A stretch of DNA of 64,000 nucleotides, taken from NCBI GenBank assembly GCA_000470535.1, contig CBRG010000109.1:1-64000 (forward strand), written 5' to 3'. Positions 5,383 through 60,985 of the stretch are shown one piece after another. The notes below the pieces were generated by a model, which had not been told where the DNA came from, ran no database searches, and saw only the letters and a list, made by a program, of their open reading frames with translations. The stretch is from Streptomyces sp. AW19M42 (lineage in GTDB: Bacteria; Actinomycetota; Actinomycetes; Streptomycetales; Streptomycetaceae). The translations under genes and the position numbers were made by a program. The number at the start of each line of letters is the position of its first letter. Position 1 is the first letter of the stretch.

Positions 5383-5632
5383 GGTCGTGCACCACCCTCC
5401 TGCGTTCGGCATCCCGGTCAGTGACCGGCATCACGAACACAGGCTAAGGGCGTCGCGCTCGTCCGGGCAATGACGAGTGACGTCCGACACCGGGCCATGC
5501 GCGCTTTCGCGGCAATTCTCCGCTTGTGCCCTCGAACGGGGAGCGGCCTGAGCCGTCCGGCGGGCGGGCCGGATGCTCCCGTCCGGGCGCGCCACTTGAT
5601 TCGGAGTGGCCGGGCAGGGTATTCGGTGTCCC

Positions 5633-7138
5633 ATGTCGTCACCGAGCAACCCTTCACATCTGCCGAGCCCGGCCGGGCCGCGGAACCTGCTGCACCGATG
5701 CGATCTCGCCGTGTTCCAGGACCTGGCCCGACGGCACTGGCCGGCTGCCGCACCCGTGCTGCCGAGGCTCAGCCGCAGCGCCAATCACGGACTGCTGTGG
5801 GCGGGTGCCGCGGTGGGCATGGCCGCGTTCGGCGGCAGCGCCCGTGCCCGGCGGGCCGCGTTGCGCGGGATCGCCTCGATGGCCGTGGCCTCGGCCGCGA
5901 TCAACACGGTCGGCAAGGGGGCGGTCCGCAGGGAGCGGCCGATACTGGACGCCGTTCCGGTCATACGCCGGCTCAAGCGCCAGCCGTTGACCACGTCGTT
6001 CCCGTCCGGGCACGCCGCGTCCGCCGCCGCCTTCGCCACCGGCGTGGCCCTGGAGTCGAAGGGCTGGGGAGCGGTCGTCGCGCCGGTCGCGCTGTCCGTG
6101 GCGGCCTCCCGCGTCTACACGGGCGTCCACTATCCGAGCGATGTGCTGGCCGGGGCGGCGCTCGGCATAGGAGCGGCGTTCGCCCTGCGCGGTGTCGTAC
6201 CGACCCGGGGACAGTTGCCCGCACCGGGCAGGCCGCCCGCCCACGCGCCCGCACTGCGCGACGGCCAGAACCTGGTCGTCGTGGTGAACGAGGCGTCGGG
6301 GACGGCCACGGCCACGGCAGCGCTGGTCCGGGACGCGCTGCCGAAGGCCGAGGTGGTCGAGTGTCCCCCCGAGGAGGTCTCCGCCGAGCTGGAGAAGGCG
6401 GCGGGCCGGGGCCTCGCACTGGGTGTCTGCGGCGGCGACGGCACGGTCAACCGGGCGGCGGCGGTGGCTTCCGTGCACGGTCTGCCGCTCGCCGTGTTCC
6501 CCGGCGGGACGCTGAACCACTTCGCGTACGACCTGGGCATCGAGACCGTGGCCGACGCCTGCGCCGCGATCGCCGCGGGCGACGCGGTCCGGGTGGACCT
6601 GGGCCGCTTCCGGCCGGGTCCCGACGGGCCAGGCGGCGCCCACGGCTACTTCCTCAACGCCTTCAGCATGGGCGTCTATCCCGAGCTGGTCCGGACCCGC
6701 GAGCACTGGTCCCCCCGGATCGGCGGCTGGCCGGCCGGCGTGCTCGCCGCGTTGCAGGTGCTGCGCGGCCGGCGTCCACTGGAGGCCGAACTGCAGGGAC
6801 GTCGGCGCCCGCTGTGGCTGCTGTTCGTCGGCAACGGCCTGTTCCAGCGGATGGGCCCGGCACCCGGCCGACGGCACAACCTCGCCGACGGGCTGCTGGA
6901 CGTACGGGTGGTGCACGGCGGCCGGACCCCGGGGCTCCGGCTGCTCGCGGCGGCCGTAGCGGGGCCGCTGACCCGCTCCCCCATGCATGCCGCCGTCCGC
7001 CGCCACCGGGTCCGGATCGCCGGGCTGAAGCCGGGAACACCGTACGCGTACGACGGTGAAGTGGCCCACAGCGGACGTGAGTTGATGGTCGACAAGCTGC
7101 CGGAGGCGCTGACGGTGTACTGCCCGATGCAGTTCTGA
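5633..7138 (+). CDS. PAP2 phosphatase fused to a diacylglycerol/lipid kinase
   Basis: 501 aa. The ATG at 5633 is preferred to an upstream GTG at 5606. The N-terminal PAP2 domain (about 30-190) shows all three signature blocks: KGAVRRERP, SFPSGH with H127, and SRVYTGVHYPSD with H166. Two or three hydrophobic segments imply a membrane location. From about 212 a DAGK/LCB5-type kinase domain follows, with GGDGT (267-271) and PGGTLNHFA (290-298). The two halves could dephosphorylate and rephosphorylate isoprenoid or diacylglycerol lipids. This fusion is recurrent in Streptomyces and its substrate is not settled. It diverges from the IclR gene. Confidence 0.9.
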   Translation: MSSPSNPSHLPSPAGPRNLLHRCDLAVFQDLARRHWPAAAPVLPRLSRSANHGLLWAGAAVGMAAFGGSARARRAALRGIASMAVASAAINTVGKGAVRRERPILDAVPVIRRLKRQPLTTSFPSGHAASAAAFATGVALESKGWGAVVAPVALSVAASRVYTGVHYPSDVLAGAALGIGAAFALRGVVPTRGQLPAPGRPPAHAPALRDGQNLVVVVNEASGTATATAALVRDALPKAEVVECPPEEVSAELEKAAGRGLALGVCGGDGTVNRAAAVASVHGLPLAVFPGGTLNHFAYDLGIETVADACAAIAAGDAVRVDLGRFRPGPDGPGGAHGYFLNAFSMGVYPELVRTREHWSPRIGGWPAGVLAALQVLRGRRPLEAELQGRRRPLWLLFVGNGLFQRMGPAPGRRHNLADGLLDVRVVHGGRTPGLRLLAAAVAGPLTRSPMHAAVRRHRVRIAGLKPGTPYAYDGEVAHSGRELMVDKLPEALTVYCPMQF

Positions 7139-11967: not shown

Positions 11968-13263
11968 TCAGGTGGAACTGAGGGGGTGGGTGGCCGTGAC
12001 GGAGCGCGGGGGCCAGGCCCGGGGCGCCAGAATGCCCAGTACGTAAGCGCGGGCGACGAGGGCCGGCCTGGTCGCGGCCCCGAGGATCTCCCGGAGCCGG
12101 CTGAGGTGGTAGTCGACCGTCTGCCGGGACAGCCTCAGCGACGTGGCGATCTCGCCGTTGCTGCTGCCCTCGGCGAGGAGGGACAGAATGCGGACCTGCG
12201 CGGCGGTGAGCGGCGGATAGGCCGCGTGGGCAAGGCTCTGGTGGGTGACGAGGGCCCACACGTGCCGGGCCCGCGCCGCGGAGCGCCCGACCGTCGTCAG
12301 GTGGAGCTGTACGCGGCGCTGCCGCCCCTGGAGGTCGACGAACACGGCGGACGTCTCCACTCGTCTCACCCTGCGGGCTATCAGCCCGTTCCATCTGCGG
12401 TGCAGCTGGCCGAGGTCGGGCGCGGGCGCGAGCAGGGTGTGCGCACGGCGGCCGACGAGATCGGCCAGGCTCGTCCGGAACAGCTCAGCGGCTGCCGCAC
12501 TCGCCTGCACGACCCGCCCGTTGGCCGACAGCAGCGCGCACGGCAGCCCGCTGTGGTCGCGCAGCGCCTGCAGGTTCTCCTCGGCCTCCCGGCGCTGGAC
12601 CATCGCGCGGGTGTGTTCCGTGATGTCCACGTAGATCCCGGCGACGCAGGTCTGCGCGTTCTCCTCCACGGGGAAGCGGTGGCCCGCCGCCTGCCCGGTG
12701 GTGCCGTCCGCGCGCTGATAGCCGAGCGTGTGGCGGACCGGCCTGCCGCGCGCGAGGATCTCATGGTCGAGCGCGCGGAACTGCACGGCGTCGGCCGGGG
12801 AGTCGAAGTCCTCGATGTGTTTGCCGACGACCTCCTGCGGGGTCGTGCCGTAGAGGTGCGCGTAGGCGTGGTTAGCCCACAGATAGCGTCCCTCCCGGTC
12901 CCGGATGAAGGCGGCGGCGGGCGCGAGGTCGGCGAAGTCCGCGAACGCGGCGTAACGGCGCGGCACTTCGGGCCGCGTGTCGGCCTCCACCGCGAGCCCG
13001 CGCCTGCGGCCCTGGCCACGTGCCCCGTCCAGTGACCAGGTCACGTCGAAGGTGCGGCCGTCGAACCGGGTCCGCCGGTGACCGTCCGCGGTCGAGGAGC
13101 CCGGATCCGAGAGTTCCTGCCGCAACCGGTCGAGGAACCGCTGCGCCGTACCCAGGTCGGCGAAGGCGCCGCCACCTCGTTCCAGAACGCGCCACTGCCC
13201 GTCAACCTCCCACCAGGACACGGGTAGATGTTCAAGCAGTGCCTTGAGCGCGTGATCGTCCAC
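11968..13263 (-). CDS. PAS-domain LuxR-type transcriptional regulator
   Basis: 431 aa. A first, weaker sensory segment occupies about 1-85. A clear PAS domain lies at about 90-210 (AAAFIRDREGRYLWANHAY, then VVGKHIEDFD and a PAC-like GIYVDITE). A second PAS-like segment follows at about 230-350. The C-terminus (about 350-410) is a LuxR/GerE helix-turn-helix with LTAAQVRILSLLAEGSSNGEIA and LSRQTVDYHLSRLREILGA. No receiver or ATPase domain is present, so it is a one-component sensor. It is divergent from the ATP-grasp/dikinase/exporter operon and is its likely regulator (inference from position). Confidence 0.88.
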   Translation of the reverse strand: MDDHALKALLEHLPVSWWEVDGQWRVLERGGGAFADLGTAQRFLDRLRQELSDPGSSTADGHRRTRFDGRTFDVTWSLDGARGQGRRRGLAVEADTRPEVPRRYAAFADFADLAPAAAFIRDREGRYLWANHAYAHLYGTTPQEVVGKHIEDFDSPADAVQFRALDHEILARGRPVRHTLGYQRADGTTGQAAGHRFPVEENAQTCVAGIYVDITEHTRAMVQRREAEENLQALRDHSGLPCALLSANGRVVQASAAAAELFRTSLADLVGRRAHTLLAPAPDLGQLHRRWNGLIARRVRRVETSAVFVDLQGRQRRVQLHLTTVGRSAARARHVWALVTHQSLAHAAYPPLTAAQVRILSLLAEGSSNGEIATSLRLSRQTVDYHLSRLREILGAATRPALVARAYVLGILAPRAWPPRSVTATHPLSST

Positions 13264-13654
13264 AGTGATGTTCCATCCTCGGTCGACTGACTGACACGGG
13301 TTGCCATCGCAAGGTGTATCCCGTCCCGATACGGCGCATGCTCGGTTCTCGGCCGACCTGAGGAGTGCGGGCGCCTCACCCGTGACGCGCCGGCGGGCCT
13401 CCCCGGAACTCTCACGATCTTTCTACGCGGCCTGCAACTCTGGCATTTGCCTGACCGGTACACGCCTTCACCGTCATTCCGGCCCCCTCTCGCCTGATTC
13501 CCTTGTGTGTGCGGGCAGACACGTCATGTCACGGGCGAGGTCTCCTTCCGATGATTCCCGGACGCACGCCTCCGGGGCCGGGCCCCGCAGCGGGTACGGG
13601 GCGAACCGCCCGGCCGCGACCTCTGACCACACGAACGAACGGAGACGAACTTCA
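13264..13654. promoter_or_regulatory. Divergent promoter region of the LuxR gene and the ATP-grasp operon
   Basis: A 391-bp gap with no coding potential that I can support; a frame running in from 13301 is only an extension of the ATP-grasp frame. It is locally A/T-richer around 13420-13510, where the operon promoter probably lies. I could not identify a convincing -35/-10 pair or a clean LuxR-type palindrome. Confidence 0.4.
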
Positions 13655-15028
13655 GTGAGCAAGGTGCTGTTGGTGCATGCCAAGGGTGGTCCGCCGCTCG
13701 GTCACGTCCTTTCCCGGGCGGCCGCGAGGTCGCAGGTGCACCTGCTGGCGCTCAGCGCCCTGCCGCCCTCGGTCGCCGGCTCCGCCGCGCGGCTGTGCGC
13801 CTCGGTCGAGACACCGGCCGACGCGGAGCGGGCGGACCTGGTCTCCCTGATCGTCTCTCGGGCGCGGGCCGTCAGGGCGGAGGCGGTGCTCACCTTCTCC
13901 GAGTACGCGGTGGTGGCAGTCGCCGAGGCCTGCGAGGAACTCGGACTCGCCGGGGCCGGCAGCGCCTCGGCCCTGGCCCGCGACAAGCGGCTGATGCGCC
14001 GCACCTGGCAGGAACACGGTCTGCCACAACCGGAGTTCCGCCCCGTCGCCACGGAGGCGGACCTCCACGCGGCCACCGAAGCCCTGACCTTCCCACTGCT
14101 GCTCAAGGCGGCCTGGAGCGCGGGCTCCACCGCGCACCAGATCATCCGCTCCCCCCACGAGGCCTCCGCCGCCTGGTCCCGCTCGCGGGAAGTAATGGCC
14201 GAATCAGCCCAGTTGGGATACGCGGAACTCCACGTGGCCGAGGCCCAGGCGGACTTCGTCGTCGAGGAGATCGTCACCGGACTGGCCACCGACTGGTTCG
14301 ACGATCCCGGCTGGGGCGACTACGTCAGCGTCGAGGGCGTCGTGGCCGACGGCGTCTTCCACCCGGTCTGCCTCAGCGGCCGGATGCCCACGGTCGAACC
14401 GTTCACCGAACGCGCGGGCATCACCCCCGCCCTGCTGCCGCCAGAGGCCCAGGAGCGTGTCGTGGCCCTCGCCCGGGAGGCCGTGGACGCCCTCGGGCTC
14501 AGCAACTGCGGTACGCACACCGAGATCAAGCTCGGGGCGGACGGCCGCATGTGGCTGATCGAGACGGCGGCCCGGCTGGGCGGCGCGATGACCGTCCCGC
14601 AGATCGAGGAGGTCTTCCACCTCGACCTCGTCGGCATGCTGGTCGACCACCTCCTCGGCCGCCCGGTCGACTGGCCTCAGCAGGCGCGTACCCCCGCGCA
14701 GGCCAGCGGCGCGGCCGGCTCCCTCGTCGTCCTCGCGGTCGACGGCAGCGGCGCAGCCTGGCAGGACCTGCGGGTCTGGGACTTCCCGGTGGTCTCCGCG
14801 GGCGTCCCGCTCAGCCGCGGCAGCGAGTTGTCCGTGGTCACGGAGAGCTCGCTCGCCGACGGCAGCGTCGTACCGGTCTACGACCCGGCCGCCGGGGCCA
14901 ACACCATGGCGGCACTGTGCCTGCTCTCCGCCGCCGACCCGCGCACCGTACTCCGCGACTTCGAGACCCTGGTCGACGCCCTGCCCCGGGTACTGCCCGC
15001 CGCGCTGCCCGAGGGAGCCGCCATATGA
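13655..15028 (+). CDS. ATP-grasp ligase (carboxylate-amine / L-amino-acid-ligase type)
   Basis: 457 aa; the GTG at 13655 has GGAGA 10 nt upstream and gives the typical first strand KVLLVHAKGGPP. An ATP-grasp fold follows: central domain with TFPLLLKAAWSAGST (K151), hinge VVEEIVTG (about 202-209), and the catalytic stretch HTEIKLGADGRMW (E290) and IETAARLGG (E303, R307). In most relatives the latter reads E-x-N-x-R; here the metal-binding Asn is Ala305. The C-terminal 115 residues form the extra lobe seen in BacD-type dipeptide ligases. It probably joins a carboxylate to an amine through an acyl phosphate. Its stop overlaps the next ATG (ATGA). Substrates unknown. Confidence 0.8.
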   Translation: MSKVLLVHAKGGPPLGHVLSRAAARSQVHLLALSALPPSVAGSAARLCASVETPADAERADLVSLIVSRARAVRAEAVLTFSEYAVVAVAEACEELGLAGAGSASALARDKRLMRRTWQEHGLPQPEFRPVATEADLHAATEALTFPLLLKAAWSAGSTAHQIIRSPHEASAAWSRSREVMAESAQLGYAELHVAEAQADFVVEEIVTGLATDWFDDPGWGDYVSVEGVVADGVFHPVCLSGRMPTVEPFTERAGITPALLPPEAQERVVALAREAVDALGLSNCGTHTEIKLGADGRMWLIETAARLGGAMTVPQIEEVFHLDLVGMLVDHLLGRPVDWPQQARTPAQASGAAGSLVVLAVDGSGAAWQDLRVWDFPVVSAGVPLSRGSELSVVTESSLADGSVVPVYDPAAGANTMAALCLLSAADPRTVLRDFETLVDALPRVLPAALPEGAAI

Positions 15029-17034
15029 CCGCCACGCTCTCCACCGACGCACCGGAACCGGCGACGGACCGTACGGTCGTCGGCGGGAACCTCTCGCTGC
15101 CGCTGTTCCGGACCCTTTCGGGGGTGCTGGCAGGTCACCCGTACCTCAAGGTCGTCGTCGACCGCACCGAGGACACCTGGCATCTGCTCGACACCGCCGC
15201 GCACCCCTTCCACGTCGACTACATCGCCACCCGGGTCCTGGGCATGGAACTGTCCGAGCTGGACGCCGGCCTGGACGCGTTCAACGCCTCCGTGTACACC
15301 GACCCCGGGCGCCGCTTCCTCCTCGGGGTGCTGTCCCTGCACACGGAGCAGGAGGCGGAGGGCCGCGAACGGGTCTTCCTCGTCCTGGAGACGACCGAGG
15401 CCGACACCATGCACGGCGCACTGCTGGAGTCCTTCTACGAGTTCGTCCGGGAGCGCGTCGACGGCAGGCTGCCGCTGCTGCTCAAGCCCGCGAACCACGG
15501 CCAGGAAGAAGAGCTGACGGCGATCAGCGAGCCGCGGGTACCGCGCATCCTCGGCCACGAGCTCTTCGGCACGCGGAACCGGACACCTCTGAATCCCGGC
15601 GACGCCACCGGGCGGCTGCGCTTCTTCCGGACCCGTGAGGAGTACGCCGCCGCCGAGGCCGGGCTCGGCTGGGCCGACATCGTCGCCATGCCCTGCCTGC
15701 CGGACGACGTACCGCGCGTGGCCGGATTCCTCAACACGGCACAGATCACGCCTCTTTCGCACACCAACGTCCTCGCCTCCGGCTGGGGCATCCCCAACGC
15801 CATCGTCCGCGACCTGGAACAGCTCGTCGAGAAGGACGGCCTGGACGGTGCGTGGGTCCGCTACCGGGTGCGCGAGGACGAGATCAGTCTGGAGCGGCTG
15901 GACCGGGAGCCCGCCCTGCAGGCCCCGGCCTGGCACCGGCAGCGCATCCGTCTGGAGCCGCCCCTGCTGGAGGACGCGCCCGTGCTGTCCCTGCACCGGC
16001 TGCGCAGCGACGACCGTGACCGGTACGGCACGAAGGCGGCCAATCTCGGCGAGCTGCACCACGTCCTGGACAGCCGCACGGCCGATCTCACCGCCTTCTA
16101 CGGACGTCCCCGCCCGCCGCGTGACGACCTCTACGGGCACCTCTCCGTCCGGCTCGGTCTGCACGCGCCCTCCACAGCCGAACTGCGCTCGGCAGCAGCC
16201 GCGTTCGTCGCGGCGACGGTCGGTGCGCCGGACGGCGTCGCGCTGCCCTTCGCGCTCCAGCACGCCTTCCTCACCTCCTCTCCGGCGCTCCAGCAGGGCA
16301 TCGGCAAGCTGAAGATGGCGCTGGAACTCGACGCCACCGACATGCTGGACGCGCTCTGTCTCCAGCTCCAGCACCTGATCCGCCACACGCCCATGCCCGA
16401 GACCGTCACCCGGCAGATCAGGCAGGCGTTCCCCGCGCCACTGGCCGCGGGCAGCCGCCTGGTGGTGCGCTCCTCCTCCAACGCCGAGGACCTCCCCGGC
16501 TTCTCCGCGGCCGGTGTCTACGACTCCGTCACCACCGTGCGCGGCACCGCCGAACTCCTCGATGCCGTAAGGCAGGTGTGGGCCTCGCTGCTGTCACCGC
16601 GCAGCGTCCGGCTGCGTCACCAGGTCGGCATCTCCCTGGACGACACGTACATGGGAGTGATCATCCAGGAGTACGTCCCCGCCTCCCTCGGCGGCGTCCT
16701 GGTGACCTGCAACCCGACCCGGCGCGAGGACTTCCGCAACGTCTACCTCAACTGCTCCCCCGGCTCCCCCGAGCAGGTCGTCGAGGGCTCCGTGCTGCCG
16801 CAGCAGTACCTGTACAACACGGTGGAGGGCGGGGGCCGCACCGTGGCCCTCGGCTCCTGGGGGGAGGGGCTGCCCGCCGCCACCCGCGCCCGGCTCGCCG
16901 ACCTGTCGCTGACGGGACGGCTCCTGCAGTCCCACTTCAGCGCGGACGACGTGGACCGGCCGCTGGACATCGAGTGGCTGATGAGCGACCGGGGCGAGCT
17001 CCGCCTGGTCCAGATCCGCCCCTACGCGCTGTGA
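15025..17034 (+). CDS. PEP-synthase/PPDK-like dikinase with swivel-before-ATP domain order
   Basis: 669 aa. Residues 1-170 form a domain I do not recognise. A phosphohistidine swivel segment follows, with TPLSHTNVLASGWGIPNA; H246 is the likely phosphorylated residue. The C-terminal half (about 325-669) is a PPDK_N/PEP-synthase ATP-binding domain. It has YGTKAANLGEL (334-344), RSSSNAEDLPGFSAAGVYDSV (482-502), VIIQEYVPASLGGVLVT and a final IEWLMSDRGELRLVQIRPYAL. The order swivel-then-ATP domain is that of glucan water dikinases, opposite to PEP synthase and rifampin phosphotransferase. No PEP-binding barrel is present, so it may phosphorylate an acceptor with the beta-phosphate of ATP. Overlaps both neighbours by 4 bp. 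Confidence 0.78.
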   Translation: MTATLSTDAPEPATDRTVVGGNLSLPLFRTLSGVLAGHPYLKVVVDRTEDTWHLLDTAAHPFHVDYIATRVLGMELSELDAGLDAFNASVYTDPGRRFLLGVLSLHTEQEAEGRERVFLVLETTEADTMHGALLESFYEFVRERVDGRLPLLLKPANHGQEEELTAISEPRVPRILGHELFGTRNRTPLNPGDATGRLRFFRTREEYAAAEAGLGWADIVAMPCLPDDVPRVAGFLNTAQITPLSHTNVLASGWGIPNAIVRDLEQLVEKDGLDGAWVRYRVREDEISLERLDREPALQAPAWHRQRIRLEPPLLEDAPVLSLHRLRSDDRDRYGTKAANLGELHHVLDSRTADLTAFYGRPRPPRDDLYGHLSVRLGLHAPSTAELRSAAAAFVAATVGAPDGVALPFALQHAFLTSSPALQQGIGKLKMALELDATDMLDALCLQLQHLIRHTPMPETVTRQIRQAFPAPLAAGSRLVVRSSSNAEDLPGFSAAGVYDSVTTVRGTAELLDAVRQVWASLLSPRSVRLRHQVGISLDDTYMGVIIQEYVPASLGGVLVTCNPTRREDFRNVYLNCSPGSPEQVVEGSVLPQQYLYNTVEGGGRTVALGSWGEGLPAATRARLADLSLTGRLLQSHFSADDVDRPLDIEWLMSDRGELRLVQIRPYAL

Positions 17035-18407
17035 GGGCCCGCCTGCCCTGGGCGCCCTCCACCGGCCGGACCGGCGGCGCCCTGACCGACACGGCCCGCC
17101 GGATCATCCGCCTGAACTACGGCTTCCAGCTGCTGTTCAACCTGCTGTGGTGGATGCCGGTGTTCTACGCCTACCAGAAGGCGGCCGGGCTCTCGGACGG
17201 GCAGATCTTCGGCATCCAGAGCATCTACTACGTGGCGTTCTGCCTGTTCGAGATCCCGACCGGGCTCATCGCCGACCGGATCGGCACCCGCAACTGCCTG
17301 CGGGCCGGGGCCGTCGTGATGACGGCGGCGAACCTGGCACCGGTGTTCAGCGCCTCGTACACCGGATTCCTGCTCCACTTCCTCGCGATCGCCGCGGGCC
17401 GCTCGCTCACCTCGGGAGCGGCGAGCGCCTATCTGTACGACGGGCTGCGGGCGGAGAAGTGCGACGAGCACTACCTGAAGGCGGAGGGCACGGCGCGGGC
17501 CCTGGGGCTGGCGGCCAAGGTCGTGTGCTGGCCGCTGGTCGGGCCGCTGATGACCCTCGCCCACACGGCCCCGTACGTGCTGAGCGCCGCCAGCGCGGCG
17601 GGCTCCCTGGCCTGTGCGGTGGCCCTGCCCCGGCTGACCGTCCCGGGGGACGCGGCCGGGGCCGGGAAGGCCGGCGGACGGGCGGGGGGCGGGCGCCGGG
17701 GCGGGGCGTTCCTGCGCGACGCGGGCTCCGCGCTGCGCTGCGTCGCCTCCTCGCCGTGGCTCGCCCTGGTGATGGTGCAGGGCGTGGCGGTGTTCACGCT
17801 CTCGCGGATCTGCCAGGTCAACCTCTTCCAGCCCATCCTGCTGGACCACGGCATCGGTGAGTCCTCGCACGGCGGGGTGCTGGCCGCCATGACGGTGGCG
17901 GAGGCCGTGGCATCGGCCAGGCCCCAGTGGCTGAGCCGCCGGCTGACGCCGGTGGCCTGGGTATCGATCCTGAGCCTGGCGCTCGCGGGCACCCTGGCCG
18001 GGCTCACCCTGGGCGGGCCCTGGGCGGTGGTCGTCCTGCTCTGCCTGTTCGCCGCCGCCACCGGCTTCGCCTACCCGGTCCAGCGCAAGCTGGTGAACGA
18101 CGCCGTGCCCGCCCACGCACCAAGGGCCACCCTGCTCTCGGTGGAGAGCATCGTGGACCGCGCGGTGTGCGCACTGGCAGCGGTGGCCGCGGGCGCGTAC
18201 CTGTCCGCCGGGCGCCTGGACGCCCTGCTCTGGCACAGCGCCCTGGCGACCGCGGTGCTGCTCGGGGTCTTCCAACTGGTGCTGCGCAGCGGGGTGGTGA
18301 AGCGTCCCTCCGACCGGACGGCCCCGGGCGTACGGCTGGATGCCGTCGCCGACGGTGCGGGCCGTCCGGCCGGAGGGGGGCGCCGGCAGGCGGACACACC
18401 TTCCTAG
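17031..18407 (+). CDS. MFS transporter, probable product exporter
   Basis: 458 aa from GTG 17031, which overlaps the dikinase stop (GTGA), so the third gene is translationally coupled. The fold shows about 12 hydrophobic segments in two halves with a basic Gly-rich cytoplasmic loop near 205-225. The motif A-like loop is LIADRIGTRNCLRAG between helices 2 and 3. The C-terminal 35 residues are hydrophilic and probably disordered. It is placed to export the product of the ATP-grasp and dikinase enzymes, or to confer self-resistance. Substrate unknown. Confidence 0.85.
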   Translation: MRARLPWAPSTGRTGGALTDTARRIIRLNYGFQLLFNLLWWMPVFYAYQKAAGLSDGQIFGIQSIYYVAFCLFEIPTGLIADRIGTRNCLRAGAVVMTAANLAPVFSASYTGFLLHFLAIAAGRSLTSGAASAYLYDGLRAEKCDEHYLKAEGTARALGLAAKVVCWPLVGPLMTLAHTAPYVLSAASAAGSLACAVALPRLTVPGDAAGAGKAGGRAGGGRRGGAFLRDAGSALRCVASSPWLALVMVQGVAVFTLSRICQVNLFQPILLDHGIGESSHGGVLAAMTVAEAVASARPQWLSRRLTPVAWVSILSLALAGTLAGLTLGGPWAVVVLLCLFAAATGFAYPVQRKLVNDAVPAHAPRATLLSVESIVDRAVCALAAVAAGAYLSAGRLDALLWHSALATAVLLGVFQLVLRSGVVKRPSDRTAPGVRLDAVADGAGRPAGGGRRQADTPS

Positions 18408-18431: not shown

Positions 18432-19067
18432 TCAGCCGGGCAGGTGGGCGAGCAGCTCGATCAGCGGGACCGGCAGGAAGGCGGGCCGGGCGGGCTGTCC
18501 GATCCGGTACGCCACGTAGCCGAGCGAGGCGGCGGTGTCGGTCTCCTCGGCCGTCTCGGCCTGGTAGACGAGACGGCAGCCACCGGACGCGTCCCGGGCG
18601 CGTTCCCAGAGTGCGGGCGCCGGCTTGCGCTCGGCCTCGGTGCGCGGGGTCAGGATCCGGTCACCGAAGTCGTCCCAGGCGAAGGGCGTGCTGCCCGTCC
18701 AGGTGCTGTCGACCTCCTTCTTGAGCACGGCCGCGCGCGCGGCGTCGGTCGTGCCCCAGGAGGACGGCACGTTGGTGATCAGCCCGACCTTGATGTGGCG
18801 TTTGCGCAGTGCGGCCAGGTGGGCGGCCGCGTCCTGCCGGTAGCCCGTGGTGTCGTCTTCGGCCGTGTGGACCAGGGTCTCGCCCAGGTCGAAGTACACG
18901 ACGACACAGCCGCGTTCGGTGCCGGTCCGAGGAGCGACGGGCGTTTCCGTGGACCCGGCGGTCACCGGTAGGGCCGCACTCGCCGTCGTGACCAGCGCGG
19001 TCGACGCCACGGCGGCACCCAGTGCGAGGCTCAGACGGACGAGGCCCCGGGAGGCGGTTCTTCTCAT
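18432..19067 (-). CDS. Secreted HAD-like hydrolase
   Basis: 211 aa. A Sec or Tat-like signal peptide is visible (MRRTASRGLVRLS, then a hydrophobic stretch to about A32). The mature part begins a HAD core: VVVYFDLGETLVH, with D60 as nucleophile and T64 in a DxGxT motif, then GLITNVPSS as motif II. KPAPALWERA supplies the motif III lysine. The usual terminal acidic pair appears as ETAEETD. Extracytoplasmic HAD proteins are uncommon; a phosphatase role is plausible. Monocistronic, with a palindromic site just upstream. Confidence 0.75.
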   Translation of the reverse strand: MRRTASRGLVRLSLALGAAVASTALVTTASAALPVTAGSTETPVAPRTGTERGCVVVYFDLGETLVHTAEDDTTGYRQDAAAHLAALRKRHIKVGLITNVPSSWGTTDAARAAVLKKEVDSTWTGSTPFAWDDFGDRILTPRTEAERKPAPALWERARDASGGCRLVYQAETAEETDTAASLGYVAYRIGQPARPAFLPVPLIELLAHLPG

Positions 19068-42386: not shown

Positions 42387-44852
42387 TCAGTCCTCGTGGC
42401 CCAGCTGGAGGTCCCGTTCGGTGCGCCCGCCGCCCGCGACCTGGAGGACCGTGGCCACCGGCGGGTAGCCGGCGGCGATCACGGTGTACTCGCCGGTGGA
42501 CAGATCGACGAACCGGAAGGCTCCGTCGGGCCCGGTGGTCACGGTGTCGACCACGTTGCCGGCCGCGTCCAGCAGTGTGACCCGGGCGTCCTCGACGAGC
42601 CGCCCGCCGCTGGCGCGTACGACGCCGCGCAGCACGGCGCCGCCTGCCAGTTCGATGTCCTGCCGGGTCTCCCGGGCCGCCTGCACACTGACCGGCAACG
42701 CGGCGGGCCGGAAGGCGGGCGCGCTGGCCGCGAGGGTGTACTCCCCCGCCACCAGTTCCGAGATCACATAGCCGCCCTCACGGCCGCTGCGGGTGGAGGA
42801 GACCACCTCGCCGCGTACGTCGGTGAGCGTGACGGCGGCGTCCCGCACCGGAACGCCGTCCGCCGTCAGGACGGTCCCCGCCAGCCGGCCGGCCCCGCCG
42901 AGCACCACGTCGAGCTCCACCGGCCGCTCGCCCACGGTGACGCTGACCGCCTGCGGCTGGTGGCCCCCGGCGGCCGCGATGAGGACGTACGAACCGGCGC
43001 CGGGGACGCTCAGCGCGTACCGTCCCTCCTCACCGCTGGCGCCCCTGCCGACCTGCTGCCCCTGGACGTCGATGAGGGTGAGGGCGGCGCGCGGGACCTT
43101 GGTGCCGTCGGGGTGCTGGACGCTGCCGCAGACGGGCACCCCTGCGAGGTGCCCGGCGGGCTGGGGGCCGGGGTCGACGCGAGCGGAGGGGATCGTCGCG
43201 GGCTCGGCTGCGGTTTCGGGGCTGTGGTGGGACACCAGCGGTTTCTCCTTGAGGAAGAAGGCGAGGAACAGGCCGAGCACGAGGACCGGCACAAGGTAGA
43301 GGAAGATCCGGGGCATCGCGTCGGCGTACGCCTGGATGTAGCTGTCACGCAGCGCCGGCTCCATGGCGTGGACCAGCTGCGGGGTGATCGACTCGGGGTC
43401 GGGCAGACCGGCTCCGGACGGCAGGCGCACCGCGAGCGCGTCGGCGAGGCGTCCGGCGAAGAGCGTGCCGAACACGGCCGCGCCGACACTGCCGCCGATC
43501 TGCCGGAAGTAGTTGTTGGCGCTGGTGGCGGTGCCGAGGTCGGCGGGCCGTACGGAGTTCTGCACGGCGAGCACCAGCACCGGCATGATCAGTCCGATGC
43601 CGAGACCGAGCACCGCCTGCGCGATGCTGTACTCCAGCCGCGGGGTGTCCGTTTCGAGCCGGGACAGGAGCCACATGCCGATCGCCGCCAGCGCGCTGCC
43701 TGCGATCGGGTAGACGCGGTATCTGCCGGTACGGGAGATCAGCTGGCCGGAGATGACCGAAGCGGCGACGATGCCGCCCATCATCGGAAGCATCAGCAGG
43801 CCGGACTCGGTGGCGGTGGCCCCGTCGACCATCTGCAGGAAGGTCGGCAGGTAGCTGGCCGCGCCGAACAGGGCGACTCCTACCACCGCGCCGACGAGCG
43901 CGCTGATGTTGAAGATCGAGTCGCGGAACAGCCGCAGGGGGATGATCGGTTCGGGCGCGCGGTGCTCGACGGCGATGAAGAGCAGTGTCGTTCCGACGGC
44001 TCCTACGGCCAGTCCCAGGATGGTGCGGGAGCCCCAGGCGTACTCCGTACCGCCCCAGCTGGTCAGCAGCACCACGCAGGTGGAGGCGGCGGCCAGCAGC
44101 AGGGCGCCGAGGATGTCGAGCCGGGGCCGGACGGTCGGCTTCGGCAGCTTCAGCACGACGGTGATGACGGCGAAGGTGACCAGGCCGAACGGGATGTTGA
44201 TGTAGAAGCACCAGCGCCAGGAGGCGTGGTCGGTGAAGAAGCCGCCGAGCAACGGGCCCGCCACGGAGGCGAGTCCGAAGGCCGCACCGATGAGCCCCAT
44301 GAACCGGCCGCGCTCCCGGGGCGGCACGACGTCCGCGATGATCGCCTGGACGCCGATCATCAGCCCGCCGCCGCCGACGCCCTGGAGGGCACGGAAGGCG
44401 ATCAGCTCGTCCATGGTGCGCGACCAGCCGGCCAGCGCGGAGCCGACGACGAACACGACGATCGCGAACTGGAAGACGCCCTTACGCCCGAAGAGGTCAC
44501 CGAGCTTTCCGTAGACCGGGAGCCCGATGGTGGAGGCGAGCAGATAGGCGGTGACCGCCCAGGACATCTTCTCCAGGCCGTGCAGCTCACCGACGATCTT
44601 CGGGAGCGCGGTGGCGACGATCATCTGGTCGAGCGCCGCGAGCAGCAGCGTGAGCATCAGCCCGATGAAGATGAGCCGGATGCGGCGCGGGTCCGTCTCG
44701 AAGCCGGGGAGCATGTCCGCCGGTTCCGTCACGGGTGGAGCGGGTGGCGCGGGTGCAGCGGGCGGCGGCGGGGGTGGTGCGGACGTCCGCGCCGTCGCGG
44801 TGTCGCCCGGACCGTCGGGCTCGTCCTTCACCAGAGTGATCCCACCCACCAC
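42387..44852 (-). CDS. DHA2-type MFS exporter with three C-terminal carboxypeptidase-regulatory-like repeats
   Basis: About 821 aa; GTG 44852 is proposed because GGGGAG lies 6 nt upstream (GTG 44831 is an alternative). After a Pro/Ala-rich leader come 14 hydrophobic segments of a drug:H+ antiporter-2. They include [33 protein letters not shown] (motif A) and the antiporter helix-5 region. From about residue 545 a linker leads to three beta-sandwich repeats of about 75-80 residues, each opening like [20 protein letters not shown] and closing with G.Y.L or GEYT strands. Such prealbumin-like domains are common on extracellular proteins. In a 14-TM protein both ends should be cytoplasmic, so their job is unclear. 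Confidence 0.9.
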
Positions 44853-45041
44853 GTGCCGCTCCCCTCGTCGCATCTGCGCCGCCCAATTTCTCGCATCGCG
44901 ATACAAGGGAGGGCAAACGCGGCGGGGGGCGCTGACGGCGCACTCGGAGGACTTAGCCCCCGGTGGGAGCCACTACGGCGCGCGACCGGGCGGGCGGAAA
45001 GACCACCCGAACCGGTGAGGCGGGAAAGCGGAACCGGGGAG

Positions 45042-54484: not shown

Positions 54485-54844
54485 ACTCCCGTTACGGGGC
54501 GCAACCCATCAAAAAAAGCCCCTCCTGTTGCTCATGCGTGGCACCCGGACGACAATTGAGGGAAATTACTGGCACCCAGTGCCTTGCCAGCTGTCACGGA
54601 GTGCCATACGTTGAAGTCGTCCGGGCGGCCGGCGTACTGAGACCTCACGTACGCCGGCTGTCCCCGCAAGCCAGGTGCCTGCGTGCCCGGACGCCTGCGT
54701 CACAGGCAAACCCTTCTGCTCCACAGAGCAGGCAGCCGAAGCATCACCAGCCGAACCGACGGCACACCTCCACGCAACACCGCTCCCCCTGCTTCGCAGG
54801 ACCCTCAAGCGTTCCCTCAGACGCAGCTCCATCGGAGGCACACC
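54485..54844. promoter_or_regulatory. ccr operon leader with a CTGGCA-N10-TGCCAG operator candidate
   Basis: This 360-bp gap carries no gene. CTGGCA (54569-54574) and TGCCAG (54585-54590) form a 6-bp inverted repeat; nested within is GGCAC-CCA-GTGCC (54571-54583). A further GAGTGCC at 54599-54605 repeats the half-site. Sequence just upstream (54508-54568) is A/T-rich and suits a promoter. The repeat cluster probably binds the regulator of the ethylmalonyl-CoA operon. GGAGG (54835-54839) serves the ccr GTG start at 54845. Confidence 0.6.
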
Positions 54845-56182
54845 GTGAAGGAAATCCTGGACGCGATCCAATCGCAGGACAGCACGGCCGCGGACTTCGC
54901 GGCGCTGCCCATCCCCGAGTCGTACCGCGCGGTGACCGTGCACAAGGACGAGGCCGAGATGTTCGCCGGCGTCGACAGCCGCGACAAGGACCCCCGCAAG
55001 TCCCTCCACATCGAGGACGTGCCGGTGCCCGAGCTGGGTCCGGGCGAGGCGCTGGTGGCGGTCATGGCCAGCTCGGTCAACTACAACTCCGTGTGGACGT
55101 CGATCTTCGAGCCCGTCTCGACCTTCGGCTTCCTGGAGCGGTACGGAAAGCTCAGCGACCTCAGCAAGCGCCACGACCTGCCGTACCACGTCATCGGCTC
55201 CGACCTGGCGGGCGTCGTCCTGCGCACCGGTCCAGGCGTCAACGCCTGGAAGCCCGGTGACGAGGTCGTCGCGCACTGCCTCTCGGTCGAACTGGAGTCC
55301 TCGGACGGCCACAACGACACGATGCTCGACCCCGAGCAGCGCATCTGGGGCTTCGAGACCAACTTCGGCGGGCTGGCCGAGGTCGCCCTGGTGAAGTCGA
55401 ACCAGCTGATGCCGAAGCCGGACCACCTCAGCTGGGAGGAGGCCGCGTCTCCCGGACTGGTCAACTCCACCGCGTACCGCCAGCTCGTCTCGCGCAACGG
55501 CGCGGGCATGAAGCAGGGCGACAACGTGCTGATCTGGGGCGCCAGCGGCGGACTCGGCTCCTACGCCACGCAGTTCGCGCTGGCCGGCGGCGCCAACCCG
55601 ATCTGTGTCGTCTCCAGCGACCAGAAGGCGGAGATCTGCCGGAAGATGGGCGCCGAGGCGATCATCGACCGCAACGCCGAGGGCTACAAGTTCTGGAAGG
55701 ACGAGCACAACCAGGACCCGCGCGAGTGGAAGCGCTTCGGCAAGCGCATCCGCGAACTGACCGGCGGCGAGGACGTGGACATCGTCTTCGAGCACCCGGG
55801 CCGCGAGACCTTCGGCGCCAGCGTCTACGTGACCCGCAAGGGCGGCACGATCGTCACCTGCGCCTCGACCTCGGGCTACACCCACGAGTACGACAACCGC
55901 TACCTGTGGATGTCGCTGAAGAAGATCGTGGGCTCGCACTTCGCCAACTACCGCGAGGCGTGGGAGGCGAACCGCCTGGTCGCCAAGGGGAAGATCCACC
56001 CGACGCTGTCGAAGGTCTACTCCCTGGAGGACACCGGCCAGGCCGCGTACGACGTGCACCGCAACCTCCACCAGGGCAAGGTCGGCGTCCTGGCGCTGGC
56101 GCCGCGCGAGGGCCTGGGTGTGCGCGACGAGGCCATGCGCGAGCAGCACATCGACGCCATCAACCGCTTCAGGGACGTCTGA
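54845..56182 (+). CDS. ccr: Crotonyl-CoA carboxylase/reductase
   Basis: 445 aa from GTG 54845. MDR-fold enzyme with the long ccr-specific insert: YNSVWTSIFEPVSTF in the GroES-like domain, VVAHCLSVELESSDGHNDTMLDPEQRIWGFETNFGG, NADPH site LIWGASGGLGSYATQFALAGGANPI, and the CO2-pocket segment FEHPGRETFG. Carboxylates and reduces crotonyl-CoA to ethylmalonyl-CoA, the committing step of the ethylmalonyl-CoA pathway and a source of polyketide extender units. First gene of a five-gene operon; ecm starts one base after its stop. Confidence 0.96.
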   Translation: MKEILDAIQSQDSTAADFAALPIPESYRAVTVHKDEAEMFAGVDSRDKDPRKSLHIEDVPVPELGPGEALVAVMASSVNYNSVWTSIFEPVSTFGFLERYGKLSDLSKRHDLPYHVIGSDLAGVVLRTGPGVNAWKPGDEVVAHCLSVELESSDGHNDTMLDPEQRIWGFETNFGGLAEVALVKSNQLMPKPDHLSWEEAASPGLVNSTAYRQLVSRNGAGMKQGDNVLIWGASGGLGSYATQFALAGGANPICVVSSDQKAEICRKMGAEAIIDRNAEGYKFWKDEHNQDPREWKRFGKRIRELTGGEDVDIVFEHPGRETFGASVYVTRKGGTIVTCASTSGYTHEYDNRYLWMSLKKIVGSHFANYREAWEANRLVAKGKIHPTLSKVYSLEDTGQAAYDVHRNLHQGKVGVLALAPREGLGVRDEAMREQHIDAINRFRDV

Positions 56183-56183
56183 T

Positions 56184-58205
56184 ATGAGTGGCCGTCAGAA
56201 GGACCGCCCCTGGCTCATGCGGACGTACGCCGGTCACTCGACCGCCGAGGCGTCCAACGAGCTCTACCGGCGCAACCTCGCCAAGGGCCAGACGGGCCTG
56301 TCGGTCGCCTTCGACCTGCCCACCCAGACCGGGTACGACCCCGACCACATCCTCGCCCGCGGCGAGGTGGGCCGGGTCGGCGTGCCCGTCTCGCACCTCG
56401 GTGACATGCGCCGGCTGTTCCAGGACATCCCGCTGGAGCAGATGAACACCTCGATGACGATCAACGCCACCGCGATGTGGCTGCTGGCGCTCTACCAGGT
56501 GGTCGCGGAGGAGCAAGGTCTTGACGGGGACGCGCTCGACAAGCTCCAGGGCACCACGCAGAACGACATCGTGAAGGAGTACCTCTCGCGCGGGACGCAC
56601 GTCTTCCCGCCGGGCCCCTCACTGCGGCTGACCACCGACATGATCACGTACACGGTCAACCGCATCCCCAAGTGGAACCCGATCAACATCTGCAGCTACC
56701 ACCTCCAGGAGGCCGGGGCCACCCCGGTCCAGGAGATCGCGTACGCCATGTCGACGGCCATCGCGGTCCTCGACGCCGTGCGCGACTCCGGGCAGGTGCC
56801 GCAGGAGAAGTTCGGCGCCGTCGTCGCCCGGATCTCCTTCTTCGTGAACGCGGGCGTCCGGTTCATCGAGGAGATGTGCAAGATGCGCGCCTTCGGCCGC
56901 ATCTGGGACCGGATCACCCAGGAGCGCTACGGCATCACCGAGGCCAAGCAGCGCCGCTTCCGCTACGGCGTCCAGGTCAACTCGCTCGGTCTGACCGAGG
57001 CCCAGCCGGAGAACAACGTCCAGCGCATCGTGCTGGAGATGCTGGCCGTCACCCTCTCCAAGGACGCCCGCGCCCGCGCGGTGCAGCTGCCCGCCTGGAA
57101 CGAGGCGCTGGGGCTGCCGCGCCCCTGGGACCAGCAGTGGTCGCTCCGTATCCAGCAGGTGCTCGCCCACGAGAGCGATCTGCTGGAGTACGAGGACATC
57201 TTCGCCGGGTCCCACGTCATCGAGGCCAAGGTGGCCGAACTGGTCACCGAATCGCTCGCGGAGATCGACCGGATCCAGCGGATGGGCGGCGCCATGGCGG
57301 CCGTCGAGTCCGGCTACCTCAAGTCCGAGCTGGTCTCCTCGCACGCCGCCCGGCGGGCCCGGATCGAGGGCGGCGACGAGAAGATCGTCGGCGTCAACAT
57401 CCACGAGGCCACCGAGCCCAACCCGCTCACCGCCGACCTCGACGCCGCGATCATGACGGTCGACCCGGCCAACGAGGCCAAGGTCGTCACCGCGCTCCAC
57501 GAGTGGCGCGACAACCGCGACGAGGCCCGCGCCACCGAGGCCCTGTCCGTCCTGAAGAAGGCCGCCGCGGGCACCGAGAACATGATGGAGGCCACCGTCG
57601 AGTGCGCCCGCGCGGGCGTCACCACGGGCGAGTGGTCCTGGGCGCTGCGCGATGTCTTCGGTGAGTTCCGCGCCCCGACCGGAGTGTCGTCCGCACCGGT
57701 CGCGGTGACCGCGCAGGAGGGCACCCCGCTGGCCCTGGTACGCGAGAAGGTCGCCCGGACCGCCGCGGACCTGGACGTGGGCCGGCTGCGGCTGCTCGTC
57801 GGCAAGCCCGGCCTGGACGGGCACTCCAACGGCGCCGAGCAGATCGCGGTACGCGCCCGCGACGCCGGCTTCGAGGTCGTCTACCAGGGCATCCGCCTGA
57901 CGCCCGAACAGATCGTCTCGGCCGCCGTCGCCGAGGACGTGCACTGCGTCGGCCTCTCGATCCTGTCCGGCTCGCACGCCGAGCTGGTGCCCGACGTGCT
58001 GACCCGGCTCCGCCGCACCGGCGCCGGCGACATCCCGGTGATCGCCGGCGGGATCATCCCGCCCGCCGATGCCGCGGACCTGATCAAAGCCGGCGTCGCC
58101 GCCGTATTCACCCCGAAGGACTTCGGTATCACGGAGATCATCGGCCGTATCGTCGACGAGATCCGGAAAGCGAACAAGCTCGACCCTCTGGAGGTCCCCG
58201 CATGA
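56184..58205 (+). CDS. ecm: Ethylmalonyl-CoA mutase (MeaA/Ecm), B12-dependent
   Basis: 673 aa. The N-terminal barrel (about 1-510) carries RPWLMRTYAGHSTAEASNELY and SVAFDLPTQTGYDPDH. The C-terminal cobalamin domain has PGLDGHSNGAEQIA with the lower-ligand H547, then LSILSGSHAELV and VIAGGIIPPADA. Single-chain mutases of this length that follow ccr convert (2R)-ethylmalonyl-CoA to methylsuccinyl-CoA, rather than methylmalonyl-CoA to succinyl-CoA. The stop overlaps the next ATG (ATGA). Confidence 0.95.
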   Translation: MSGRQKDRPWLMRTYAGHSTAEASNELYRRNLAKGQTGLSVAFDLPTQTGYDPDHILARGEVGRVGVPVSHLGDMRRLFQDIPLEQMNTSMTINATAMWLLALYQVVAEEQGLDGDALDKLQGTTQNDIVKEYLSRGTHVFPPGPSLRLTTDMITYTVNRIPKWNPINICSYHLQEAGATPVQEIAYAMSTAIAVLDAVRDSGQVPQEKFGAVVARISFFVNAGVRFIEEMCKMRAFGRIWDRITQERYGITEAKQRRFRYGVQVNSLGLTEAQPENNVQRIVLEMLAVTLSKDARARAVQLPAWNEALGLPRPWDQQWSLRIQQVLAHESDLLEYEDIFAGSHVIEAKVAELVTESLAEIDRIQRMGGAMAAVESGYLKSELVSSHAARRARIEGGDEKIVGVNIHEATEPNPLTADLDAAIMTVDPANEAKVVTALHEWRDNRDEARATEALSVLKKAAAGTENMMEATVECARAGVTTGEWSWALRDVFGEFRAPTGVSSAPVAVTAQEGTPLALVREKVARTAADLDVGRLRLLVGKPGLDGHSNGAEQIAVRARDAGFEVVYQGIRLTPEQIVSAAVAEDVHCVGLSILSGSHAELVPDVLTRLRRTGAGDIPVIAGGIIPPADAADLIKAGVAAVFTPKDFGITEIIGRIVDEIRKANKLDPLEVPA

Positions 58206-59218
58206 CCACGCCCGACCCGTCGCCCGTCACCACCCCGAACTCGGGCGGCTCCGCCGCGCACCCCTTGAACCGGCTACGCCCCCGACGCTCCTGCCTGGCC
58301 GTCCCGGGCTCGAACCCCCGCTTCCTGGAGAAGGCCCAGGGCCTCCCCGCGGACCAGGTGTTCCTGGACCTGGAGGACGCGTGTGCGCCGCTCGCCAAGG
58401 AGGGCGCCCGGCACCACATCGTCGACGCGCTGAACAACGGTGACTGGACGGGCAAGACCCGGGTCGTGCGGGTCAACGACTGGACGACGCACTGGACGTA
58501 CCGCGACGTCATCACGGTCGTCGAGGGCGCGGGCCCCCACCTCGACTGCATCATGCTGCCGAAGGTCCAGGACGCCCAGCAGGTCGTCGCGCTGGACCTG
58601 CTGCTGACCCAGATCGAGAAGACGATGGGCTTCGAGGTCGGGAGGATCGGCATCGAGGCGCAGATCGAGAACGCCAAGGGCCTGGTGAACATCGACGCCA
58701 TCGCCGCCGCCTCGCCCCGCCTGGAGACCCTGATCTTCGGCCCGGCCGACTTCATGGCCTCGATCAACATGAAGACCCTGGTCGTCGGCCAGCAGCCGCC
58801 CGGGTACGGCGCGGACGCCTACCACTACATCCTGATGCGCATTCTGATGGCGGCCCGCACGCACGATCTCCAGGCGATCGACGGCCCGTTCCTCCAGATC
58901 CGCGACGTGGACGCCTACCGCGAGGTCGCGGGCCGTGCGGCGGCGCTCGGCTTCGACGGCAAGTGGGTGCTGCACCCCGGCCAGGTCGACGCGGCGAACG
59001 AGGTGTTCTCGCCCTCCCAGGAGGACTACGACCACGCCGAGCTGATCCTCGACGCCTACGACTGGTGCACCTCGGAGGAGGGCGGCAAGAAGGGTTCGGC
59101 GATGCTCGGCGACGAGATGATCGACGAGGCCAGCCGCAAGATGGCCCTGGTCATCGCCGGCAAGGGCCGCGCGGCCGGCATGGAGCGCACGTCCAAGTTC
59201 GAAGCCCCGGAGGCCTGA
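58202..59218 (+). CDS. HpcH/HpaI-family malyl-CoA/beta-methylmalyl-CoA lyase
   Basis: 338 aa. CitE-like TIM barrel with RSCLAVPGSNPRFLEKA, VFLDLEDACAPLAKEGAR (metal-binding Glu/Asp), IMLPKVQDAQQV and FGPADFMASI. The C-terminal GFDGKWVLHPGQVDAANEVF is diagnostic. In this operon it should cleave beta-methylmalyl-CoA to glyoxylate and propionyl-CoA. Coupled to ecm by a 4-bp overlap and one base before the MaoC gene. Confidence 0.93.
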   Translation: MTTPDPSPVTTPNSGGSAAHPLNRLRPRRSCLAVPGSNPRFLEKAQGLPADQVFLDLEDACAPLAKEGARHHIVDALNNGDWTGKTRVVRVNDWTTHWTYRDVITVVEGAGPHLDCIMLPKVQDAQQVVALDLLLTQIEKTMGFEVGRIGIEAQIENAKGLVNIDAIAAASPRLETLIFGPADFMASINMKTLVVGQQPPGYGADAYHYILMRILMAARTHDLQAIDGPFLQIRDVDAYREVAGRAAALGFDGKWVLHPGQVDAANEVFSPSQEDYDHAELILDAYDWCTSEEGGKKGSAMLGDEMIDEASRKMALVIAGKGRAAGMERTSKFEAPEA

Positions 59219-59219
59219 T

Positions 59220-59747: not shown

Positions 59748-59749
59748 CC

Positions 59750-60955: not shown

Positions 60956-60963
60956 TTGCCCCA

Positions 60964-60985
60964 TTCGCGGTGATTTAACCGCGAA
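60964..60985 (+). terminator. Terminator of the ethylmalonyl-CoA operon
   Basis: TTCGCGGT (60964-60971) pairs perfectly with ACCGCGAA (60978-60985) around a 6-nt loop, 9 bp after the dehydrogenase stop. The following sequence is purine-rich, not a T-tract. Confidence 0.75.

Follow-up and report, generated by a model that had tools for sequence, protein, structure and literature searches.

Few natural products contain a bond between nitrogen and phosphorus (N–P bond), and the enzymes known to form such bonds are few. N-phosphoryl dipeptides such as phosphoramidon and FMPI have thermolysin as their classic target, FMPI being known since about 1982 from its producer Streptomyces rishiriensis NK-122. 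The kinase of phosphoramidon and talopeptin biosynthesis is TalE, which belongs, like TalC, to the tal cluster, and Baulig and colleagues reportedly described in 2019 a kinase forming the N–P bond of phosphoramidon-type inhibitors. Phosphoramidon inhibits thermolysin with a Ki of 30 nM, its phosphoramidate being the zinc-binding group (PMC9404851, partial text), and FMPI is phosphophenylalanylarginine, a metalloprotease inhibitor from S. rishiriensis with an IC50 in the nM range (PMC6429109, partial text). For phaseolotoxin, phtL, which encodes a protein similar to pyruvate phosphate dikinase (PPDK) and phosphoenolpyruvate (PEP) synthase, is required, and the authors assume that it has a role in N–P bond formation (PMC4530439, PMC3927611, both as partial texts). 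The L-glutamine kinase Cj1418, once annotated as PEP synthase/PPDK, phosphorylates the amide of glutamine (PMC10971088, in its accessible part). This article addresses a four-gene locus of Streptomyces sp. AW19M42, located in the first 64,000 nucleotides of contig CBRG010000109.1 (the whole stretch of DNA that was analysed, hereafter the window). Judging from homology, structural models and analogy, this locus probably directs the synthesis and export of a sugar-free N-phosphoryl dipeptide, an FMPI/phosphoramidon-type inhibitor of thermolysin-type metalloproteases.

Three genes of the locus, encoding an ATP-grasp ligase, a dikinase and a transporter of the major facilitator superfamily (MFS), are joined by 4-bp overlaps (ATGA at 15025–15028, GTGA at 17031–17034), and a PAS-LuxR regulator gene diverges from them across a gap of 391 bp (Table 1). 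This arrangement, described by an earlier sequence-only reading of the window, is found as such in the sequence, with the same coordinates and overlaps. The Pfam matches of the encoded proteins are ATP-grasp_4, PPDK_N and MFS_1 for the three genes and PAS_4, PAS_9 and GerE for the divergent one.

Table 1. Features of the locus and of its immediate surroundings in the window (aa, amino acids; AF2, AlphaFold2; HAD, haloacid dehalogenase)
Feature	Position	Strand	Basis
PAS-LuxR regulator gene, divergent from the operon	11968..13263	-	Pfam PAS_4, PAS_9, GerE; same place in 80/80 loci
Putative operator, imperfect palindrome CTCtGGCATTTGCCTGAc, core GGCATTTGCC at 13442-13451	13438..13455	.	Recurrence in intergenic regions
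ATP-grasp ligase gene, BacD-like, 457 aa	13655..15028	+	Best NCBIfam and PDB match BacD; AF2 model, Foldseek
Dikinase gene, 669 aa, without PEP/pyruvate barrel	15025..17034	+	PPDK_N; fold matches; dN < dS
Swivelling phosphohistidine domain of the dikinase, residues 181-293 (H246 = 15760-15762)	15565..15903	+	VIA-align; S245/H246 in 81/81
PPDK_N-type ATP-binding domain of the dikinase, residues 316-669	15970..17031	+	VIA-align; invariant residues in 81/81
MFS transporter gene, presumed product exporter	17031..18407	+	MFS_1; third gene in 80/80 loci
HAD-like protein gene, convergent, accessory	18432..19067	-	PF00702 below cut-off; homologue in 34/80 loci

Relatives of the locus were collected among 84,980 species genomes by a scan that relies on the N-terminal half of the dikinase and on two peptide motifs, LAGHPYLK and [AV]HPFHV[ND]Y, and that favours close relatives. 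It found 84 of them, 80 of which were kept, all from named Streptomyces; counts out of 80 refer to this set. The order and orientation of the PAS-LuxR, ATP-grasp, dikinase and MFS genes are identical in all 80 loci, and 78 of these exceed the length thresholds set for the four proteins (300, 400, 640 and 350 aligned residues, respectively), the two others being L093, with a short MFS match, and L116, with short PAS, ATP-grasp and MFS matches. The 4-bp overlap is found between the ATP-grasp and dikinase genes in 70 loci and between the dikinase and MFS genes in 58, as measured from the nearest in-frame start, which makes the MFS start less certain. Among 392 genomes of the same genus (own included), 46 encode a full-length dikinase, which is split in two in one of them, and the ATP-grasp gene lies beside the dikinase gene in all 46 carriers, as a C-terminal fragment only in G749 and with the MFS gene in between in G517. 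Five divergent copies (L162–L166) retain all three genes at 44–62% identity. The most divergent of these, L166 (the G517 copy), displays the order dikinase, MFS, ATP-grasp, and no PAS match was found within the 19–20 kb taken for L162, L164 and L166. As the three genes stay together even in copies with another order or without a PAS match, the bond between them outlives both gene order and regulator. Globally, the four genes are a real, widespread and self-contained unit, the layout of which is not due to chance. Co-conservation had been named beforehand as the test that could refute the sequence-only reading; the genes proved to be kept together in the 80 named loci, the 46 genomes and the five divergent copies alike.

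The ratio of nonsynonymous to synonymous substitution rates (dN/dS) of the ATP-grasp, dikinase and MFS genes against three relatives is about 0.15–0.34 (nine pairs), i.e. dN < dS throughout. Outside the genus, a class-level draw of 296 genomes gave full-length dikinases only in five same-genus genomes (own included) and a phylum-level draw of 396 genomes only in three same-genus ones, plus five weak partial matches elsewhere; in these draws, as in the same-genus one, 3 to 5 candidates were scored per genome, so that misses are possible. Among the weak matches, L044 is an ordinary PEP-utilising enzyme, and L041 and L042 are barrel-less proteins sharing the domain order of the dikinase. In Streptomyces sp. 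NBC_00080 and NBC_01471 (L031 and L032), the cassette is plasmid-borne, on linear molecules of about 0.55 Mb, and its neighbours differ. Genes are broken or truncated in L116, L093 and L167, and the dikinase frame of L128 (9953–12394) is enlarged by an insert; given these copies, the operon may be decaying in places (alignment A4 does not include L167 and L128). The surroundings of the divergent copy L166 (4529–19976) are rich in mobile elements, with transposase genes of the IS110 type and others, a gene for a group II intron reverse transcriptase and, nearby, a gene encoding a pPIWI_RE domain.

The dikinase has a single Pfam match, PPDK_N at residues 396–598 of its 669 aa (139.6 bits). The PEP-utilizers_C barrel has no Pfam match in the 669 aa (E 0.01) nor in residues 1–392 alone (E 1), which agrees with the earlier statement that the protein lacks a PEP/pyruvate barrel, and reading the middle gene as a PEP synthase was rejected on this ground. 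In an AF2 model of moderate quality (predicted local distance difference test, pLDDT, 76; predicted template modelling score, pTM, 0.66), residues 316–669 resemble in fold the ATP domain shared by rifampin phosphotransferase, PEP synthase and PPDK (5hv1, Z 26.6, root-mean-square deviation 2.9 A over 285 residues, VIA-align), and the counterparts of residues 181–293 are phosphohistidine domains of the swivelling type (5fbu, Z 11.4, 2.2 A over 100 residues; Enzyme I, 2wqd, Z 10.3). The phosphohistidine domain therefore precedes the ATP domain. Eight positions, S245, H246, R482, E488, D489, E650, Q663 and R665, are invariant in 81/81 sequences, and H246 is also kept in L041 and L042, which are only distantly related. 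Because it combines a phosphohistidine domain, an ATP domain, invariant residues and a low dN/dS with the lack of a barrel, the protein is probably active as a dikinase, with a phosphate acceptor that is not pyruvate.

Glucan water dikinase (GWD) also has its phosphohistidine domain before its ATP domain. The "GWD-ordered" label given by the sequence-only reading holds for this order only and fails in the starch sense, which was rejected for want of a starch-binding domain: a Pfam scan of residues 1–392 at E 1 returned no match. GWD is absent from the fold-match lists of the dikinase, which says nothing either way, and in the literature searched no paper connects GWD with gene clusters of Streptomyces.

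The other enzyme is, by homology, a BacD-like L-amino-acid (dipeptide) ligase. BacD (YwfE) is its best NCBIfam match (183.6 bits) and its best PDB sequence match (E 6e-50), and BacD/YwfE structures are the top three Foldseek matches of its AF2 model (pLDDT 90.6; E 2e-38 to 4e-37, template modelling score about 0.8). The ATP-grasp residues K111, K151, E204, E290, E303 and R307, which are shared with BacD in the alignment, are conserved in 80 of the 81 aligned sequences, with one gap. According to Tsuda et al. in 2014, the loss of Trp332 from BacD reportedly admits bulkier residues. BacD accepts small N-terminal residues and Trp332 is a key residue of its pocket, according to the partial text of a review (PMC6920838). 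The corresponding position of the ligase is occupied by A311, also an alanine in 80/81 aligned sequences (one gap), and this replacement suggests a pocket for the N-terminal residue that is roomier than that of BacD.

Sister ligases that are 41–46% identical to this one belong to other small clusters without any dikinase nearby. In L172 (9886–11280) and L173 (9969–11339), a sister ligase of 41–43% identity is part of a four-gene set, methyltransferase, asparagine-synthase-like protein, ligase and MFS transporter, which possibly corresponds to another small-peptide pathway. Those of L170 (9057–14490) and L171 (5137–13638) are both accompanied by enzymes dependent on pyridoxal phosphate and an AraC regulator, together with a TauD dioxygenase and an O-methyltransferase in the former and with an HpcH aldolase and an MFS transporter in the latter. 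Such contexts are those expected for a family of natural-product ligases.

The sequence-only reading had likened the operon to a compact route by which a small molecule, phosphorylated or ligated, is made and exported; the present data fit this proposal, and the molecule can be narrowed to an N-phosphoryl dipeptide. The ligase would join two free amino acids, the first of which is probably bulky and hydrophobic. The dikinase would then move a phosphate of ATP to H246 of its swivelling domain and from there to the free amino group of the dipeptide, and the MFS protein would export the product. The PAS-LuxR protein would switch the operon on through a palindrome of the shared promoter. Outside the cell, the phosphoryl group would bind the zinc of thermolysin-family (M4) metalloproteases, either those of the producer or those of its competitors. 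The amino group of a dipeptide is favoured as the phosphate acceptor because the sole other enzyme is a dipeptide ligase by homology, because Cj1418 and PhtL provide precedents and because M4 genes are found next to the cassette. FMPI, a bare N-phosphoryl dipeptide, is the kind of compound that would be expected from the operon, and S. rishiriensis NBRC 13407 (L079), a strain distinct from the producer NK-122, carries the operon.

The idea of an N-phosphoryl dipeptide predates the emergence of the M4 gene from the flank analysis, M4 not having been written down as a prediction. An M4 gene lies 85–438 bp from the cassette in 12 of the 80 loci (tblastn), on either side and in four clade groups. 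It is downstream in the same direction in L113, L117 and L131, and also, as a 52%-identical subfamily, in L094 and L102; downstream and convergent in L103, L105 and L107; and upstream of the PAS gene in L106, L114, L115 and L120. Both HExxH and NExxSD are present in 11 of the 12 genes, the twelfth (L120) being cut by a contig end. With a background of 276 M4_C matches in 61 same-genus genomes (516.8 Mb, about 0.53 per Mb), which overlap only partly with the genomes of the 80 loci, 0.59 M4 genes would be expected by chance in the flanks as a whole (1.11 Mb) and 0.29 close to the cassette. Since the Poisson figure ignores relatedness, changes were also counted on a tree built by a quick method: there are seven changes of the M4 label, at least five of which are forced by well-supported branches. 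Long branches such as L162 and L166 are flagged in this tree, and its "none" label includes L071 and L099, the contigs of which end less than 1 kb from the cassette. Besides M4, a gene of the SSI family (subtilisin inhibitor-like) is located just upstream of the divergent copy L163 (12762–13376), on the same strand, and has no homologue in the other loci searched.

Several points weigh against an N-phosphoryl dipeptide directed at M4 proteases. Dikinases of this superfamily also phosphorylate oxygen, and residues 1–180 of the dikinase, its likely substrate domain, have no assigned fold and are hardly covered by the fold search. As the operon is present in 46 of 392 genomes, its occurrence in S. 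rishiriensis would be a coincidence of about 1 in 9, in a strain other than the producer, and neither a HAD homologue nor an M4 gene was found in that locus (L079) by tblastn. No M4 match was found in 68 of the 80 loci (7 of the 80 having less than 2.6 kb on one side) nor in the 64-kb window. Loci with M4 belong to few clades and the independent events are nearer 4–7 than 12; a fair count would be about four groups, and the probability of four or more groups by chance is 2e-4 at 0.29 expected and 3e-3 at 0.59. Furthermore, M4, with 10 loci by clustering of open reading frames (ORFs), ranks barely above LysR (9 loci) and MFS (8), a narrow lead that is offset by proximity: all 10 M4 genes lie within 2.6 kb of the cassette, versus 4 LysR and 6 MFS genes. 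Finally, a regulatory role has also been proposed for PhtL, which weakens this precedent (PMC4530439, PMC3927611, in the parts available).

Four other explanations have to be weighed against these data. The M4 proteases might be unrelated neighbours and the phosphorylated dipeptide might have another role, as a signal or an antibiotic. The loci devoid of M4 and the abundance of these genes in the genus speak for this explanation, which nevertheless appears unlikely: about 0.6 M4 genes were expected and 12 were observed, all less than 0.5 kb from the cassette, the gene surfaced from a ranking of 1332 flank ORFs that was blind to function, and a gene for an SSI-type protease inhibitor adjoins a divergent copy. 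Alternatively, the dikinase could target an oxygen, be it the phenol of a tyrosine or the hydroxyl of a serine in the dipeptide or that of another small molecule, and give an O-phosphate. Its ATP domain has a solved relative in HpeI of Rhodococcus (9goj, Z 19.7), which is part of a phenol-phosphorylating enzyme, but the M4 neighbours suit a zinc-binding N-phosphoryl group, and phaseolotoxin, a peptide with an N–P bond, pairs ATP-grasp ligases with a dikinase-like protein according to the partial accounts cited above; O-phosphorylation is thus rather improbable.

It is somewhat less credible still that the product is a pro-drug, i.e. that the dipeptide is toxic, that its phosphorylation by the dikinase serves self-protection, that the masked form leaves the cell through the MFS protein and that a secreted HAD-like protein removes the phosphate outside. 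The best fold matches of the dikinase do include rifampin phosphotransferase, which phosphorylates rifampin, and in 33 of the 80 loci the gene directly behind the MFS gene codes for a HAD-like protein whose N-terminus looks like a signal. However, nothing in the cassette encodes an enzyme dedicated to an unusual, toxic amino acid, and conservation of the flanks stops at HAD and M4, which points to an ordinary dipeptide; this explanation also faces the 46 loci in which no HAD gene was found and leaves the M4 genes unaccounted for. By far the least probable option is that the dikinase primes a condensation, as RedH and PigC do when they activate a substrate in prodigiosin biosynthesis, and that the product bears no phosphate. 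The ATP domain is hit by the RedH (75 bits) and PigC (69 bits) models of NCBIfam, but the best models of PEP synthase (109.7 bits) and rifampin phosphotransferase (Rph, 101.2 bits) score higher, all being far below their cut-offs, and the ligase already forms the bond.

The regulation of the operon is likely to be self-contained, through a putative operator palindrome that resembles the operators of PAS-LuxR regulators such as PimM. The 80 loci contain 64 occurrences of the core GGCATTTGCC, in one orientation or the other, always within the PAS/ATP-grasp intergenic region or at most 30 bp from it. The consensus CTCAGGCATTTGCCTGAG, which was derived from the same loci on which it was scored, is matched with at most three mismatches in 75 of the 79 loci measured. 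The palindrome was not found in the divergent copies, the best matches of which to the consensus have 5–6 mismatches.

The 1332 flank ORFs of all 80 loci were clustered and ranked regardless of function, after an earlier round on 20 loci and the window. Immediately beside the cassette, only the HAD-like gene (25 loci by clustering, 34 by tblastn) and the M4 gene (10 and 12) are recurrent, and therefore the core consists of the four genes; a larger pathway with conserved flank genes is not supported. Next come common families located further out: LysR (9 loci, 4 within 2.6 kb), MFS (8, 6) and protein kinase (6, 4). Ten clusters were scanned besides HAD and M4, others of 3–4 loci being left out. 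Among these 12 recurrent clusters, one glycosyltransferase was found, a GT2/polysaccharide-deacetylase protein present in 4 loci. There is none among the 6 + 10 window proteins scanned nor in the two most recurrent flank families, and the scan of 30 proteins from the divergent loci L162–L166 revealed neither a glycosyltransferase nor a deoxysugar gene.

LHPP is a HAD enzyme that acts on P–N bonds. By analogy, the HAD-like protein may cleave a P–N bond outside the cell, which is a conjecture. Its homologues in 34 of the 80 loci (tblastn) are encoded directly behind the MFS gene in 33 and about 5 kb away in L090; the gene was not found in the 46 others. D60, T98, K148 and E171 are conserved in 35/35 sequences, motif I being DLGE and not DxDx, and the N-terminus looks, as judged by eye, like a signal peptide.

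Other parts of the window contain unusual proteins and gene groups. A gene at 42390–44906 encodes an MFS transporter fused with several carboxypeptidase-regulatory-like repeats, an uncommon fusion also found in L165 (16339–18933), and the protein encoded at 5606–7135 combines a PAP2 phosphatase and a diacylglycerol-kinase catalytic domain. The genes at 54683–62625, for a zinc-type dehydrogenase/reductase, a methylmalonyl-CoA-mutase-like protein, an HpcH/CitE-like lyase and an acyl-CoA dehydrogenase, presumably correspond to the ethylmalonyl-CoA pathway.

The N-phosphoryl dipeptide reading can tentatively be extended to the whole genus. It is possible that about 1 in 9 Streptomyces species have a minimal phosphoramidate pathway, made of two enzymes and an exporter and yielding sugar-free M4 inhibitors, that its dikinases constitute a separate, reversed-order clade forming N–P bonds, that it explains FMPI, that the secreted HAD protein acts as an off-switch by splitting the P–N bond and that the linked M4 protease is the producer's own target. 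If true, this two-enzyme route, which can be tested in vitro, would be among the simplest pathways for peptide inhibitors; it would provide the genes for FMPI as well as a kinase family for metalloprotease inhibitors with different side chains, and would suggest that in many streptomycetes the secreted thermolysin-like proteases are matched by a small-molecule inhibitor of the same producer.

In the literature searched, which left most subscription papers outside its coverage, no paper on this operon or on a gene assignment for FMPI was found. The remark of the sequence-only reading that no such system was described thus holds for the exact operon and not for its pieces, since Cj1418, the ligases and dikinase-like protein of phaseolotoxin and the N–P kinase of phosphoramidon have been published. 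The dikinase shares its ATP and swivelling phosphohistidine domains with rifampin phosphotransferase and PEP synthase; in Rph, the order is reversed, the ATP domain coming first (5hv1, residues 1–315) and the swivel match later (5fbu, 393–867). Like the proposed pathway, bacilysin biosynthesis combines a dipeptide ligase, BacD, with an MFS exporter, BacE, whereas the operon has no anticapsin genes, includes an added dikinase and encodes A311 instead of W332 in its ligase. By description, and within the partial texts cited for them, Cj1418 resembles the proposed dikinase in being PEP-synthase-like and phosphorylating a nitrogen, although it acts on the amide of glutamine for the capsule, and phaseolotoxin biosynthesis (PhtL, PhtQ, PhtU, PhtP) unites two ATP-grasp ligases with the dikinase-like PhtL, a protein of the HAD family and a product with an N–P bond, but involves 23 genes and leads to a sulfodiaminophosphinyl tripeptide. 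The tal cluster, also likened by description, would resemble the operon in its products, N-phosphoryl dipeptide inhibitors of thermolysin made by Streptomyces with a dedicated N–P kinase. Phosphoramidon carries a deoxysugar, in contrast with the operon, which has no glycosyltransferase among the proteins scanned. If TalE belongs to the clade of the dikinase, the operon would be a sugar-free version of the tal pathway; if not, it would be an independent solution to the same chemistry.

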